DNA of 64,000 nt from Neopararhizobium haloflavum (GTDB taxonomy: Bacteria > Pseudomonadota > Alphaproteobacteria > Rhizobiales > Rhizobiaceae), in NCBI RefSeq assembly GCF_002750855.1, contig NZ_NWUC01000009.1, forward strand, positions 62,001 to 126,000, written 5' to 3'. Shown in pieces: positions 23,999 to 28,531 of the stretch; position 1 is the first letter of the stretch, and every line of letters starts with the position of its first letter. The translations under genes were made by a program, and so were the position numbers. The notes under the pieces are model-generated. The model was not told where the DNA came from and made no database searches. It was given only the letters and a program-made list of their open reading frames with translations.

Positions 23999-25444
23999 TC
24001 AGGCTTCGTCGGAAGACTCGTCCTTCTTGGCAGCAGCCTTTTTCTTCGGTGCGGCCTTCTTCTTGGCGGGCTTCTTGTCGGCGGCTTCGGCCTTTGCCTC
24101 GCCGTCCTCGTCTTCATCCGCCATCAATTCTTCCTTGGTGACGGTCTTGTCCGTCACCTCGATCTCGCCGAGCAGGTGATCGATCACCTTCTCTTCAAAG
24201 ATCGGAGCGCGCAGCGAGGCCGCGGCGCCCGGCGTCTTCTGGAAGTATTCGAGGATCTGCTTTTCCTGCCCGGGATACTGCCGGATCTGGTCATAGACAG
24301 CACGTTGCATCTCCTCATCGGAAACCGTCACGCCGGCCTTCTCACCGATTTCGGAAAGAACCAGACCGAGACGAACCCGACGCTCGGCCAGCTTGCGGTA
24401 TTCTTCGCGCGCGGCCTCTTCGGTCGTGTCTTCGTCCTCGAACGTCTTGCCCGACTGTTCCAGGTCACGGGTGATCTGGGTCCAGATGTTGTTGAACTCC
24501 GCATCGACCAGGGTCTGCGGCGCGTCGAACTTATAGAGCGTATCCAGCTGATCGAGGATCTGCCGCTTCACTTTCTGACGCGTCATCTGGCCGTACTGGC
24601 TTTCGATCTGGCCGCGCACGACTTCACGCAGCTTGTCGGCTGATTCCAGCCCGAGCTTCGTTGCAAGCTCGTCGTCGATCTTCAGCTCCGCAGCCTTTGC
24701 GACATCCTTCACGGTGACGTCGAATGTTGCTTCCTTGCCGGCAAGGTGGGCGGCCGGGTAGTCCTCGGGAAAGGTGACGGTGATCGTCTTCTCATCGCCA
24801 GCCTTGACGCCGACCAGTTGCTCTTCGAAGCCGGGAATGAAGCGGTTCGAGCCGATCACCAGTTCCGCGTTCTCGTCCTTGCCGCCGTCGAATGCTTCGC
24901 CGTCGACCTTGCCGAGATAGTCCATGGTGACGCGGTCGCCGTCGGCCGCCTTGCCCTTCTTGGTCTCGTACGTCTTGGCATTCTCCGCCACACGCATCAC
25001 CTGTTCCTCGACCTCCTCGTTCGGAACGTCGACGACTTCACGGGTGACCTTGAGCTTGGAGTTGTCCTGCAATTCGATCGCAGGAATGACTTCATAGGCG
25101 ACAGAGAACTCGAAATCCTTCTTGGCGTTGAGGATTTCGTTCGCTTCCTCTTCGTCCTCGGTCATCTTGATCTCGGGCTGCGTAGCAGACCGTTCGCCGC
25201 GTTCGGTGAGGATCGCACTCGGCTTGTCGCGAATGATCTCGTTGACGAGATCGGCCATGAACGATTTGCCGTACATCTTCTTGAGGTGCGACATCGGCAC
25301 CTTGCCGGGCCGGAAGCCGTTCAGCCGCACCTTGCTTTTTGCATCGGCCAGCCGCTCGTTGAGCTTCTGCTCCATTTCCTGAGCCGGAACGACGACCTTG
25401 ATCTCGCGTTTCAGGCCTTCGGCCAGGGTCTCGGTAACCTGCAT
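23999..25444 (-). CDS. tig: Trigger factor
   Basis: Trigger factor is the ribosome-bound chaperone that meets nascent chains at the exit tunnel. The 481-aa product has the ribosome-binding signature GFRPGKVP in the N-domain, a FKBP-type peptidyl-prolyl isomerase domain (around 160-250, [19 protein letters not shown]) and the long helical C-domain. The last about 30 residues form a lysine/alanine-rich tail ([18 protein letters not shown]), a common alphaproteobacterial extension. ATG 25444 follows AAGAAGG. It lies 93 nt downstream of tRNA-Leu. Confidence 0.96.
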
Positions 25445-25537: not shown

Positions 25538-25622
<85 letters not shown>

Positions 25623-25922
25623 TCGGATACCCCATAGGACGATCGACGCTGCAAGGGCATCCTCGAGCGCGCGTCTCTATATCACTCGATTCCTGACGTT
25701 CAAAGGAAAAATGCTGCCAATCGCCCTGCCGCCAGCCCTACCTTGATGGCGGTGGGCGGCGCGCTGCAGCCGGCAGAGCTTGGCGTGAAGAAAAATGATG
25801 CCCAGCCCCTTCCCGCGGTGCGTCATCGTACCTAAATGCAAAGTCACGGCGATGACAGGTCGGCAAGTCGTTGACCTTCTTTCATGAAGGCGAATTTGTT
25901 GACGTTGTCGAGAACCGCGTAA
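25623..25922. other. Intergenic stretch without a recognisable gene
   Basis: About 300 nt separate tRNA-Leu from the first small-RNA promoter. A minus-strand frame is open through most of it but has no ribosome site, no family resemblance and basic low-complexity composition, so I treat it as non-coding. An imperfect GC-rich hairpin occurs near 25725-25760, without a T tract. Confidence 0.5.
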
Positions 25923-25979
25923 GGTGCATAGCTTCCATGTGAATATTGCACTGCACAAAGTTCTCGAATCGCTTATTAT
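25923..25979 (+). promoter_or_regulatory. Predicted activator-dependent promoter of the first anti-SD sRNA
   Basis: GGTGCATAGC (25923-25932), 15 nt, then GCACTGCACAAA (25948-25959) and TATTAT (25974-25979). The second half-element overlaps a -35-like TGCACA at 16 nt from the -10. The same bipartite element with the same spacing recurs at 26277, and in weaker form at 26774. The layout (distal site near -60, proximal site over -35) is that of LysR-type activator sites. Predicted transcription start is about 25986. Confidence 0.55.
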
Positions 25980-25985
25980 GAGACC

Positions 25986-26165
25986 ATCGAATGGTTTTAA
26001 GGATTATTCGATCGCCGACCGGGCGTTAATCGGCACCGGAATTCGGAGTGGCAATCTCCTCCTCCCATTGCCTCTTCGATACGATGGATGGTTATCCTCC
26101 TCCCAACCATCCATCACCATAAGTAGCGCCCGCCGGATCTCCTCCCCCGGCGGGCGTTATTTTTT
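25986..26165 (+). ncRNA. Anti-Shine-Dalgarno trans-acting sRNA, alpha-r14/NfeR1 (cuckoo) type
   Basis: Three consecutive hairpins each display a pyrimidine loop complementary to ribosome binding sites. Stem GGCAAT/ATTGCC has loop CTCCTCCTCCC (26050-26072). Stem GATGGATGGTT/AACCATCCATC has loop ATCCTCCTCCC (26083-26115). The terminator stem CGCCCGCCGG/CCGGCGGGCG has loop ATCTCCTCCC. This is the described architecture of rhizobial alpha-r14 sRNAs such as NfeR1 of Sinorhizobium meliloti, which pair with mRNA ribosome sites and bind Hfq. The 5' end is inferred from the promoter. A processed start nearer 26040 is possible. Confidence 0.85.
26127..26165 (+). terminator. Intrinsic terminator of the first anti-SD sRNA
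   Basis: Ten-base-pair G+C stem (26127-26136 with 26147-26156) followed by TTAT and a T run. Its loop, ATCTCCTCCC, carries the third anti-SD motif. Confidence 0.92.
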
Positions 26166-26276
26166 GTCCAGGCCGGACAGGCAAGGCGCGGATCGCTGCT
26201 TCGGAAACAGGGTCGGCAGGGCCCAAGCGGCTGGTGTGAAGCTCCGGTTAATTTCCGCACGGTTTCTCATGCAGTG

Positions 26277-26334
26277 GGTGCATAGCCAAGATGCTTCTTT
26301 CGCACTGCACAAATGCCGCTTCACTCCCTATGTT
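26277..26334 (+). promoter_or_regulatory. Predicted promoter of the DUF1127/anti-SD unit
   Basis: GGTGCATAGC (26277-26286), 15 nt, GCACTGCACAAA (26302-26313), then TATGTT (26329-26334). All 22 bases of the two half-elements and their spacing are identical to those at 25923, while the intervening 15 nt differ, which points to selection on a protein-binding site rather than recent duplication. Predicted start about 26340, giving a leader of about 50 nt before the DUF1127 gene. Confidence 0.55.
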
Positions 26335-26388
26335 CCGGCTATCGAATTCAGCCGCGCTGACGCGGCCGCAAGAAGAAGGATGAAGACG

Positions 26389-26529
26389 ATGAACGTGACA
26401 CGCTCTTTCAACAACTGGCGCAAGTTTCGGCAGACCTGCAACGAACTGAACCGCATGTCGGACCGTGAGCTGAGCGATATCGGTGTCAATCGCGCCGACA
26501 TCTCGCGGATCGCTCGGGCCGCAATCTAA
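26389..26529 (+). CDS. Small DUF1127 protein (first copy)
   Basis: The 46-aa protein MNVTRSFNNWRKFRQTCNEL continues into the DUF1127 core NRMSDRELSDIGVNRADIS. DUF1127 proteins are short, arginine-rich and RNA-associated. In Rhodobacter the DUF1127 protein CcaF1 is encoded just upstream of CcsR sRNAs and affects RNA turnover, and in Brucella such genes are VtlR-activated. The start at 26389 has AAGAAGAAGGA at 8 nt. ATG 26380 is a longer alternative. Two anti-SD hairpins follow the stop, so the transcript resembles the CcaF1-CcsR unit. Confidence 0.88.
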   Translation: MNVTRSFNNWRKFRQTCNELNRMSDRELSDIGVNRADISRIARAAI

Positions 26530-26657
26530 GCGGCTTTTAGAATTCGGCTTGAACGCTCCTCCTCCCAGCGTTCGCCGAACAGGCCGGCAGCCCTTCTCCT
26601 CCCAACTGTCGGCCATTTCACAAAGCCTGCTGGCACGATCGTGCCGGCGGGCTTTTT
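26530..26657 (+). ncRNA. Anti-SD hairpins in the 3' UTR of the DUF1127 gene (probable processed sRNA)
   Basis: Directly after the DUF1127 stop, GAACGCT/AGCGTTC encloses loop CCTCCTCCC (26551-26573, extended by TTCGG/CCGAA). A second stem GGCCGGCAG/CTGTCGGCC (26582-26614) encloses a loop with CTCCTCCC, and a terminator closes the transcript. The loops match those of the upstream sRNA while the stems differ. Release from the mRNA by an RNase, as for CcsR RNAs, is an inference. Confidence 0.75.
26623..26657 (+). terminator. Intrinsic terminator of the DUF1127/anti-SD transcript
   Basis: AAGCCTGCTGGCAC pairs with GTGCCGGCGGGCTT through a GATC loop (two G-T pairs), followed by a T run ending at 26657. 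Confidence 0.9.
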
Positions 26658-26773
26658 CGTTATGAAACCCCTTGCGCCGCCGCCGCCGTATTGGCGTTGC
26701 CCGTTTCACTTTCTGCCGTTTTTTTTCGCACGATGAACCGTGCGCCTTCATTCTCTGCAAGCAGCGCGCAGGC

Positions 26774-26829
26774 TGCATATCTGACGCCTAATGTTTGCGC
26801 TTCATGCGCAAGGATTGGGCGCCTATATC
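26774..26829 (+). promoter_or_regulatory. Predicted promoter of the second DUF1127 gene
   Basis: TGCATATC (26774-26781), 15 nt, GCGCTTCATG (26797-26806), then CTATAT (26823-26828). The distance from TGCATA to the -10 equals that in the two promoters upstream, and the proximal half-site matches at GC-x-CT-x-CA. This copy is weaker than the other two. Confidence 0.4.
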
Positions 26830-26879
26830 GGGCGCAATGCTGCACCGCACTATCGCGGTCGCCTCACAGGAACATTGAC

Positions 26880-27026
26880 ATGAGCATGATCGCCTCCGCC
26901 CGCGCGTGGCTGAACCACCGCCGCACGATGAGCCAACTCCGTGGTCTCTCCAACGAGGCTCTCGAGGACATCGGTCTGACGCGCTACGACGTCACCCACA
27001 CCTTTGGCTCGCGCACCTCGCGCTGA
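26880..27026 (+). CDS. Small DUF1127 protein (second copy)
   Basis: The 48-aa product has the DUF1127 core SQLRGLSNEALEDIGLTRYD with an arginine-rich C-terminus. CAGGA precedes ATG 26880 at about 9 nt. It differs substantially from the first copy, so this is an old paralogue rather than a recent duplication. No anti-SD hairpin follows. trmFO begins 53 nt downstream and may be partly cotranscribed. Function is inferred only by family: a small, probably RNA-linked stress protein. Confidence 0.88.
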   Translation: MSMIASARAWLNHRRTMSQLRGLSNEALEDIGLTRYDVTHTFGSRTSR

Positions 27027-27079
27027 TATTCGCGCCGCGGTGCGTTGGCGCGATCGGACGAGCGTGCTAGAAGCCCGCG

Positions 27080-28531
27080 ATGACGATGGATAACGATGCC
27101 CTCCCCGATGCCGCCGCGACGCCTGTTCATGTGATCGGAGGCGGTCTTGCCGGCTCGGAAGCCGCATGGCAGATCGCGGAAGCTGGTGTGCGGGTGATCT
27201 TGCACGAGATGCGCCCGGTTACTCCGACCGATGCGCACAAGACCGACGGGCTCGCCGAGCTCGTGTGCTCGAACTCGTTCCGGTCCGACGACAGCGAGAC
27301 GAACGCCGTCGGTGTGCTCCATGCCGAGATGCGGCTTGCCGGTTCGCTCATCATGGCCTGCGGCGACCGCAATCAGGTGCCTGCGGGCAGCGCTCTGGCG
27401 GTGGATCGCGACGGGTTTTCCGATGCGGTCACTCAGGCGCTTGAAGCCCATCCCCTGGTCGAAATCGTGCGGGAAGAGGTGCCGGGGCTGCCGCCCGCCG
27501 AATGGGCCTCGACGATCATCGCAACGGGTCCACTGACCGCGCCTGCCCTCGCGCACGCCATCCAACATGAGACCGACGCCGACGCTCTCGCCTTTTTCGA
27601 CGCCATTGCGCCGATCATCCATACCGATTCGATCGACATGGACATCTGCTGGCATCAATCGCGCTACGACAAGGTCGGTCCAGGCGGCACCGGCAAGGAC
27701 TACATCAATTGTCCGATGACGCGCGATGAGTACTACGCCTTCATCGATGCGCTGATCGCCGGCGAGAAGACCGAGTTCAAGGAATGGGAAGGCACGCCCT
27801 ATTTCGACGGCTGCCTGCCTATCGAGGTCATGGCAGAACGCGGACCGGAGACACTTCGGCATGGGCCGATGAAGCCGATGGGGCTGACCAACAGCCACAA
27901 ACCCGACGAAAAGCCTTATGCCGTTGTGCAGCTACGCCAGGACAATGCGCTTGGAACGCTTTTCAACATGGTCGGCTTTCAAACAAAGCTGAAATATGGT
28001 GCCCAAACGGCCGTTTTCCGTATGATCCCCGGCCTTCAGAATGCGGAATTCGCAAGGCTCGGTGGGCTACACCGAAACACCTACATCAATTCTCCGGTTC
28101 TGCTCGACCCTTCTCTGCGGCTGAAATCACGCGCCAGCATCCGTTTCGCAGGTCAGATCACCGGCTGTGAGGGCTATGTGGAATCGGCGGCCGTTGGGCT
28201 GCTTGCGGGACGATTTGCTGCCGCCGAGGCGCTGGGCAGCCAACCGTCGCTCCCACCTGGAACCACGGCGATGGGGGCCCTGCTGAATCATATCACGGGC
28301 GGCCATCTGGTCTCCGATGATGAGCCCGGCAAGCGGTCGTTTCAGCCGATGAACATCAATTTCGGGCTGTTCCCGCCGCTCGATGCCGGTGCGATCGTCA
28401 AGCCGGAAGGGGTCAAGCGATTCCGGGGCAAGGACAAGGCGATTGCCAAGAAACGGGCGACCGCACGGCGCGCGCTAGCCGATTGCGCGGAATGGCTGGG
28501 CCTCCAACAGCCGGGAATCGCTGCCGAGTAG
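27080..28531 (+). CDS. trmFO: Methylenetetrahydrofolate-tRNA (uracil-54-C5) methyltransferase TrmFO
   Basis: The 483-aa flavoprotein forms ribothymidine at U54 of tRNA using methylene-THF and FADH2. The N-terminal dinucleotide-binding [13 protein letters not shown] and [14 protein letters not shown] are diagnostic, as are [11 protein letters not shown] and the later [20 protein letters not shown] and [11 protein letters not shown]. Length is at the upper end of the family. ATG 27080 lacks a strong ribosome site, and ATG 27086 is an equal alternative. It follows the DUF1127 gene. Confidence 0.95.

Follow-up and report, generated by a model that had tools for sequence, protein, structure and literature searches.

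The question raised by this locus is whether three copies of one short element, each standing ahead of a different group of small genes, form a shared switch and, if so, which regulator reads them. The window, by which we mean the whole stretch of 64,000 nucleotides of Neopararhizobium haloflavum DNA that was analyzed, comes from a 4.17-Mb genome in 36 contigs, and the region of interest lies between tig (on the minus strand) with a tRNA-Leu gene on the one side and a GIDA-family gene, which we take to be trmFO, on the other. The order within the region is ar14, then DUF1127-ar14, then DUF1127, with one copy of the element ahead of each group. Judging from the sequence, we consider it highly probable that these elements act as operators for LsrB, the LysR-type activator called VtlR in Brucella. 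The features of the locus are as follows.

23999..25444, minus strand: tig (trigger factor), conserved left neighbor (Pfam Trigger_N, Trigger_C and FKBP_C; synteny)
25538..25622, minus strand: tRNA-Leu (tag)
25915..25959, plus strand: operator 1, with half-sites CCGC at 25915 (poor), GCAT at 25926, ATGT at 25937 and GCAC at 25948, then TGCACAAA; matrix score 38.1
25974..25979, plus strand: -10-like hexamer TATTAT of promoter 1, predicted start near 25987 from NfeR1 homology
26038..26162, plus strand: ar14 RNA copy 1 (Rfam RF02344, 115.3 bits), with three CTCCTCCC motifs
26269..26313, plus strand: operator 2, with perfect half-sites ATGC at 26269, GCAT at 26280, ATGC at 26291 and GCAC at 26302, then TGCACAAA; matrix score 28.4
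26329..26334, plus strand: -10-like hexamer TATGTT of promoter 2, predicted start near 26341
26380..26529, plus strand: DUF1127 microprotein 1 (DUF1127-1), 49 residues (PF06568, E 1.4e-15)
26539..26659, plus strand: ar14 RNA copy 2 in the 3' UTR of DUF1127-1 (RF02344, 69.1 bits), with two CTCCTCCC motifs
26622-26655: terminator-like stem of ar14 copy 2
26764..26808, plus strand: operator 3 (weak), with GCGC at 26764, GCAT at 26775, GCCT at 26786 and GCGC at 26797; matrix score 15.0
26824..26829, plus strand: -10-like hexamer TATATC of promoter 3, predicted start near 26836
26880..27026, plus strand: DUF1127 microprotein 2 (DUF1127-2), 48 residues (PF06568, E 2e-10)
27080..28531, plus strand: GIDA-family gene, conserved right neighbor (PF01134, E 2e-98; synteny)

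Elsewhere in this genome, two contigs have near-identical starts (C4:1-1784, L005, and C8:1-1784, L004), each with a DUF1127 gene at 180-284, and this is perhaps a repeated element at contig ends.

Three copies of an element between tig and trmFO

The preliminary description of this DNA had read a bipartite element, GGTGCATAGC followed after 15 nt by GCACTGCACAAA, at 25923-25932 and 25948-25959 and again at 26277-26286 and 26302-26313, with a weaker third copy (TGCATATC at 26774, 15 nt, GCGCTTCATG), and a letter-by-letter check agrees, as all 22 half-site bases and the spacing are identical in copies 1 and 2 and the 15-nt spacer is unrelated. The distance from the first T of TGCATA to the -10-like hexamer is likewise 49 or 50 nt in each case (TATTAT at 25974, TATGTT at 26329, and CTATAT/TATATC at 26823/26824). 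The pattern TGCATANC-N13..17-GCNCTNCA has three matches in the whole 4.17-Mb genome, all of them at this locus, and the same pattern read backwards as a control has one. Each copy does precede a group of small transcripts, as had been claimed, but there are two ar14 RNAs and the second had been missed. The bipartite reading itself has to be replaced, since aligned promoters resolve four half-sites instead.

Operator 2 is the sole four-half-site match with at most one mismatch in this genome, and it is perfect. In operator 1 the first half-site is missing, and in operator 3 just one of the four is good; the score of operator 3, 15.0, lies above 99% of shuffles (10.2) and below the best shuffle (17.2). 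The LysR-type motif T-N11-A, as read from the letters, is present from TGCATA in copies 1 and 2 and absent in copy 3. Operators 1, 2, and 3 deviate from the box GCAT-N3-TG-N3-T at one, two, and one of its seven fixed letters, respectively; the exact box stands at the place of copy 3 in congeners and at L276 in the promoter of the first DUF1127 unit. A scan of 25800-27150 for ordinary sigma-70 promoters gave a single promoter-like pair, TGCACA/TATTAT (9/12; 0.7 expected in shuffles), which says little because its first hexamer overlaps the proximal half-site.

Comparison with three congeners separates the copies. Operators 1 (25915-25959) and 2 (26269-26313) have identities of 0.87 and 0.85, compared with 0.38 and 0.26 for the spacers that lead from them to the -10 and 0.42 and 0.39 for the intergenic DNA ahead of them. 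Operator 3 shows no conservation beyond its flank in these congeners, its identity of 0.52 being equal to that of the intergenic stretch before it. Hence the expectation that the operator is kept while the surrounding intergenic DNA changes holds for copies 1 and 2 and fails for copy 3, and copies 1 and 2 exceed chance. The leader between the predicted start and the ar14 homology (25987-26037, about 50 nt) is little conserved in congeners, with an identity of 0.52, and leaders before first ar14 units reach about 150 nt in other genera.

Both ar14 copies, at 115.3 and 69.1 bits, exceed the gathering score of RF02344 (58.8). The second is separated from DUF1127-1 by nine bases, too short a gap to hold a separate promoter, and it would be co-transcribed with DUF1127-1 and released by RNase; among relatives (set 1, below), the gap is 91 nt or less for 33 of 36 DUF1127-then-ar14 neighbors. 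Outside the window, the genome has one more strong ar14 copy, its third, at C35:84617-84807 (L010; 118.4 bits), where tblastn of the 3.1-kb locus found no DUF1127 gene and where the promoter carries ATGC-N7-GCAT-N7-TTGC about 67 nt before the RNA, which is of the NfeR1 type.

Anatomy and breadth of the operator among relatives

Many relatives carry ar14 and DUF1127 arrays of varying order between tig and trmFO, and by profile annotation two loci (L129 and L334) have six ar14-like units in tandem. For set 1, DNA surrounding ar14 or DUF1127 genes was taken from relatives in 60 stretches and annotated by profiles; one stretch (L154) contains neither feature by that annotation. The set holds 181 ar14 and DUF1127 units. 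Of these, 124 either open their stretch or follow the preceding unit at a distance of 150 nt or more; one near a contig end was left out, giving 123 scored units, and units with shorter gaps were taken as co-transcribed and left unscored. Model-free word counts already separate these promoters from shuffled sequence: TGCA-N18-TGCA occurs in 39 of 84 upstream regions of DUF1127 (at most one in three shuffled sets), TGCA-N6-GCAT in 32 of the 84 (at most four), and ATGC-N7-GCAT in 22 of 40 upstream regions of ar14 (at most one).

The operator matrix was seeded with the element of the window itself and scored leaving out each locus in turn, with congeners retained, and the shuffles, drawn along dinucleotide transitions with a random jump wherever a path ended, preserve dinucleotides only approximately. 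With this leave-one-locus-out matrix, 80/84 DUF1127 units and 35/39 ar14 units of set 1 lie above 99% of 615 shuffles; the best shuffle is exceeded by 66 and 29 of them, respectively. Set 2 consisted of 80 named loci upstream of trmFO in other genomes, seven of which have neither ar14 nor DUF1127 in the stretch read (some are shortened by contig ends); L267 and L337 were removed because they have sequence in common with set 1. In the remaining 78 loci, 106/106 DUF1127 units and 35/38 ar14 units beat all 740 shuffles with a matrix derived from other loci, although the units of both sets are not statistically independent because the genomes are related to each other. The operator was missed at four of 84 DUF1127 and four of 39 ar14 units of set 1 (at the 99% level) and at three of 38 ar14 units of set 2. 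The proposal of a switch shared by anti-SD sRNAs and microproteins is thus upheld by these matrix tests, in which the operator is kept upstream of related loci. Outside the locus, 6/20 DUF1127 genes within the family and 7/20 in the outgroup pass the 99% level, so the operator marks only a subset of DUF1127 genes; four and three of them, respectively, also surpass the best of 400 shuffles, and a reach of the operator beyond the family is no more than suggested.

In aligned sites from relatives, the operator reads ATGC-N7-GCAT-N7-ATGC-N7-GCAC with the -10 in fixed register. The spacing ATGC-N7-GCAT occurs in 47/123 upstream regions of set 1 and 46/144 of set 2 (other spacings up to 25: at most 10 and 17), and GCAT-N7-ATGC in 31/123 and 45/144 (at most 9 and 13). 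The last pair, ATGC-N7-GCAC, occurs in 15 and 17 regions, where other spacings reach 13 and 27, which we attribute to ATGC also overlapping the second half-site and to the recurrence of GCAC. Regions with 13 or more of the 16 half-site letters number 67/123 and 89/144, compared with 1/369 and 0/432 shuffles. At 78 of 95 sites, the best -10-like hexamer follows the T of TGCAT at a distance of 49 or 50 nt, a peak that is absent when the letters are shuffled. This bears out the layout of a LysR-type activator that had been assigned to the element, with recognition near -65 and activation near -35/-45, both phased with the -10, where distances to +1 are predicted ones.

The register can be anchored to a known RNA. 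The LsrB motif of NfeR1, TGCA-N6-GCAT, is placed at -72 to -60 in the portion of the source available (PMC10746234), and the same motif lies 69-73 nt before the second ar14 of five Sinorhizobium/Ensifer loci (L268, L278, L281, L323, and L333), one of which has TGCG instead of TGCA; this second ar14 is presumably NfeR1. With the start set by this homology, the outer pair of half-sites would center near -66 and the inner pair near -44. By their letters, the published motifs GCAT-N3-TG-N3-T and TGCA-N6-GCAT read as overlapping parts of one operator.

Specificity depends on the number of half-sites demanded, and all three of the following counts are to be read against backwards controls that differ in composition and probably understate chance: the strict pattern has 62 places versus 24 control matches in 121 family genomes (a hand count), and is therefore only moderately specific on its own; three half-sites with at most two mismatches give 452 matches versus 88 in this genome; and 187/395 family genomes hold the four-half-site pattern when up to one mismatch is allowed, with six control matches among those listed. 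The 452 matches were set aside as a regulon, being too loose given the 88 of the control. Contexts were read at 30 loci, which are part of all matches with at most one mismatch. Nine of ten perfect matches lie within 450 nt before DUF1127 or ar14, and the tenth (L378) precedes an unnamed microprotein. Among the 20 one-mismatch matches, 11 stand ahead of DUF1127 or ar14, four ahead of small reading frames that carry no annotation (L381, L400, L402, and L403), and five are of neither kind and lie inside long reading frames (L377, L382, L390, L393, and L405), as do some of the other one-mismatch matches. A clear -10 stands in register at L381 and L400, and L402, L403, and L378 have TTACCT there.

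By eye, L378, L381, L402, and L403 seem to encode proteins of a single family, 57-59 residues long. The four microproteins tested gave nothing above the cut-off in Pfam (best E of 0.064 to 0.29, and none for L381), and those tested against NCBIfam gave no match. This genome has a member of about 57 residues outside the window at C10:510356-510514 (E 1.2e-13; L407, C10:510237-510520), and its operator, with a matrix score of 23.0 and a -10-like hexamer, starts 110 nt before the ATG. Members occur in 27 of 61 genomes. Two matrices trained solely on ar14 and DUF1127 units, one of the distal part and one of the full operator, find a site above 99% of shuffles upstream of 23 and 20 of the 27 members, respectively, and one or both do so for 24. 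Its C-terminal part aligns with DUF1127 over 22 columns at an hhalign probability of 68 (19 of the 27 loci used), which hints weakly that the two are kin. At L381, CTCCTCCC-like motifs lie downstream of the microprotein frame, and the pairing of a microprotein with an anti-SD RNA may recur there.

LsrB as candidate regulator and the alternatives

VtlR/LsrB had been named as a candidate for the element, and the candidacy is strengthened by an orthologue beside AbcR and by the match in sequence and register with published LsrB/VtlR-bound promoters. In this genome the gene for a LysR-type protein (L178:1928-2827, minus strand) adjoins the ar15/AbcR gene, and the best PDB match of the protein is 9hh1 (E 5.7e-167), the structure of A. 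tumefaciens LsrB, and by sequence we assign it as the LsrB orthologue. A relative at E 1e-60 or better is found in 55 of 61 genomes searched; co-occurrence of LsrB and DUF1127 across genomes was set aside as evidence, since it is confounded by descent. According to the parts of the literature available, LsrB binds the AbcR1 promoter of S. meliloti and binds and activates the nfeR1 promoter of the same organism (PMC10746234), and VtlR binds the abcR1, atu1667, and vrsA promoters of A. tumefaciens (PMC7486931). The distal-part matrix, trained without AbcR sequences, placed 26 of 30 ar15/AbcR upstream regions above 99% of shuffles, and in 25 of these 26 the distal site lies 73-75 nt before the RNA (the RNA start of L192 was set by hand). 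In the ar15/AbcR promoters (L167-L196) the first three half-sites are kept by eye, and many have TTG-containing letters in place of GCAC. The fourth half-site may lie outside LsrB binding as such, and the activation part may differ between target classes.

We propose that a dimer of dimers of LsrB would read the four tetranucleotide half-sites, which are about one helical turn apart, with the outer pair (about -66) as the recognition site and the inner pair (about -44), followed by TGCACAAA at the place of the -35, as the activation site. LsrB on the outer pair and, when active, on the inner pair would recruit RNA polymerase, and transcription would start at a -10 that lacks a normal -35 and stands at a fixed distance from the operator. 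Activation would then supply ar14 copy 1, the DUF1127-ar14 transcript and, more weakly, the second DUF1127 gene. RNase would free the 3'-UTR ar14 from its transcript, on the model of DUF1127-CcsR in Rhodobacter, and the ar14 RNAs would use their CTCCTCCC motifs to keep mRNAs from being translated, which is how NfeR1 acts. LsrB binding, tetramer occupancy, starts, activation, RNA processing, and sRNA targets are what we infer from these comparisons.

That LsrB is the protein that binds these operators we regard as very probable. The main binder might instead be another LysR-type regulator, OxyR or a paralogue, with LsrB absent or sharing the site, as the geometry is that described for OxyR and as OxyR and LsrB are described, in sources seen in part, as being of common ancestry and co-regulating genes; yet the half-sites are ATGC/GCAT rather than ATAG/CTAT and the identical sequence stands in the accessible accounts of LsrB/VtlR targets, and we consider such a binder unlikely. 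A role for NtrC or another non-LysR factor is brought to mind by the available text on S. meliloti NfeR1, which NtrC represses from TGC-N11-GCA (PMC10746234). This motif is absent upstream of operators 1 and 2, with one T-rich match before operator 3 (26714), and the conserved spacings are N7, which makes a non-LysR binder very improbable. We give equally little credence to the repeat being a relic of tandem duplication of the ar14/DUF1127 promoter with no shared regulator today. Three related units do stand in tandem with a copy in each, but the half-sites of copies 1 and 2 are identical although their 15-nt spacer is unrelated, the operator is retained in congeners while the flanks change, and it recurs ahead of many units in other genera, of AbcR, and of a microprotein that looks unrelated.

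LsrB thus remains our preferred binder, and the likeliest of the alternatives concerns copy 3. It is quite conceivable, if somewhat short of an even chance, that operators 1 and 2 alone work and that copy 3 is decayed or fortuitous, with DUF1127-2 read otherwise, given a score under the best shuffle, an identity in congeners equal to that of the flank, and a single good half-site among the four. Its position and spacing to the -10 are nevertheless correct, congeners carry GCAT-N3-TG-N3-T at this place, and strong operators stand at the last-DUF1127 units of many other genera.

Significance and relation to known systems

The preliminary description had singled out the shared switch as novel, and this has to be narrowed, since activation of NfeR1 (ar14), AbcR1, and DUF1127 genes by LsrB/VtlR has already been published piecemeal in the sources available in part, and the pairing of CcsR-like sRNAs with DUF1127 has been described under the name CIN1 locus in the accessible part of one report (PMC10253847). 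What appears to be new is the anatomy of the operator, its breadth, and the additional microprotein target. In the literature searched, which was covered in part, we found no description of a four-half-site LsrB operator (one may exist elsewhere), of an operator at nearly all scored tig-trmFO promoters, of a mixed ar14 / DUF1127-ar14 / DUF1127 locus under three elements, or of the unnamed microprotein as a target.

More broadly, LsrB of the Rhizobiaceae, and probably that of several further families in the order, may chiefly switch microproteins (DUF1127 and the unnamed DUF1127-like family) and anti-SD sRNAs (ar14 and AbcR) through an ATGC operator of OxyR geometry, with ar14 recruited repeatedly beside or behind DUF1127, and we see the case for this generalization as evenly balanced. 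If true, one redox-linked regulator would set protein-based and RNA-based control together. The operator model itself predicts that ar14 RNAs, AbcR, DUF1127 proteins, and the unnamed microprotein family all answer to one regulator, so that the phenotypes of LsrB, the sRNAs, and DUF1127 proteins would have to be read as one circuit. It also joins the two published LsrB motifs into one testable operator of OxyR geometry and should improve the search for genes that LsrB controls directly in rhizobia and their relatives. According to the portion of the study available, a search of the A. tumefaciens genome with the 15-bp box found a single new site (PMC7486931), which may be explained by the box being only part of the operator.

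The closest known system is nfeR1 of S. meliloti, which shares with the window an ar14 RNA with anti-SD motifs and whose LsrB motif, TGCA-N6-GCAT, equals half-sites 1 and 2 of our operator; the accessible part of that report describes one motif at -72 to -57 and a repressing NtrC site (PMC10746234), whereas the window has no NtrC motif before operators 1 and 2, has four half-sites, and has DUF1127 genes under the operator as well. In A. tumefaciens the VtlR box GCAT-N3-TG-N3-T spans half-sites 2 and 3, and VtlR directly bound a small-protein gene orthologous to Brucella VtlR targets; as far as the available text goes, that study used the 15-bp box only and the operator of the window is longer (PMC7486931). 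The A. tumefaciens locus (L276) has two DUF1127 genes with operators and, unlike the window, no ar14 by profile. In the excerpt available on the Brucella regulon, VtlR activates three DUF1127 genes and an sRNA, as proposed here, and its motif CAATGCAGCCATGCA, when reversed, fits the operator of the window, although the sRNA is AbcR2 there and ar14 here (PMC12595884). The CIN1 locus of Rhodobacter sphaeroides (ccaF1-CcsR1-4) resembles the window in having a DUF1127 gene directly followed by an anti-SD sRNA; in the part of the account available, its DUF1127 gene is co-transcribed with anti-SD sRNAs that are then processed out, from an RpoHI/RpoHII promoter (PMC10253847) in contrast to the LsrB-type operator in the window. 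Finally, OxyR sites are described in the accessible parts of two sources as two tandem ATAG-N7-CTAT inverted repeats, placed at -66 and -44 in oxyS much like the centers predicted for the window, with an analysis that, unlike our operator, adds a third repeat at -35 (PMC8787470, PMC5002191). The half-sites are ATAG/CTAT in the one case and ATGC/GCAT in the other, so that the agreement is in geometry only, and LsrB and OxyR are described, in a source available in part, as two lineages from one ancestor that co-regulate genes.
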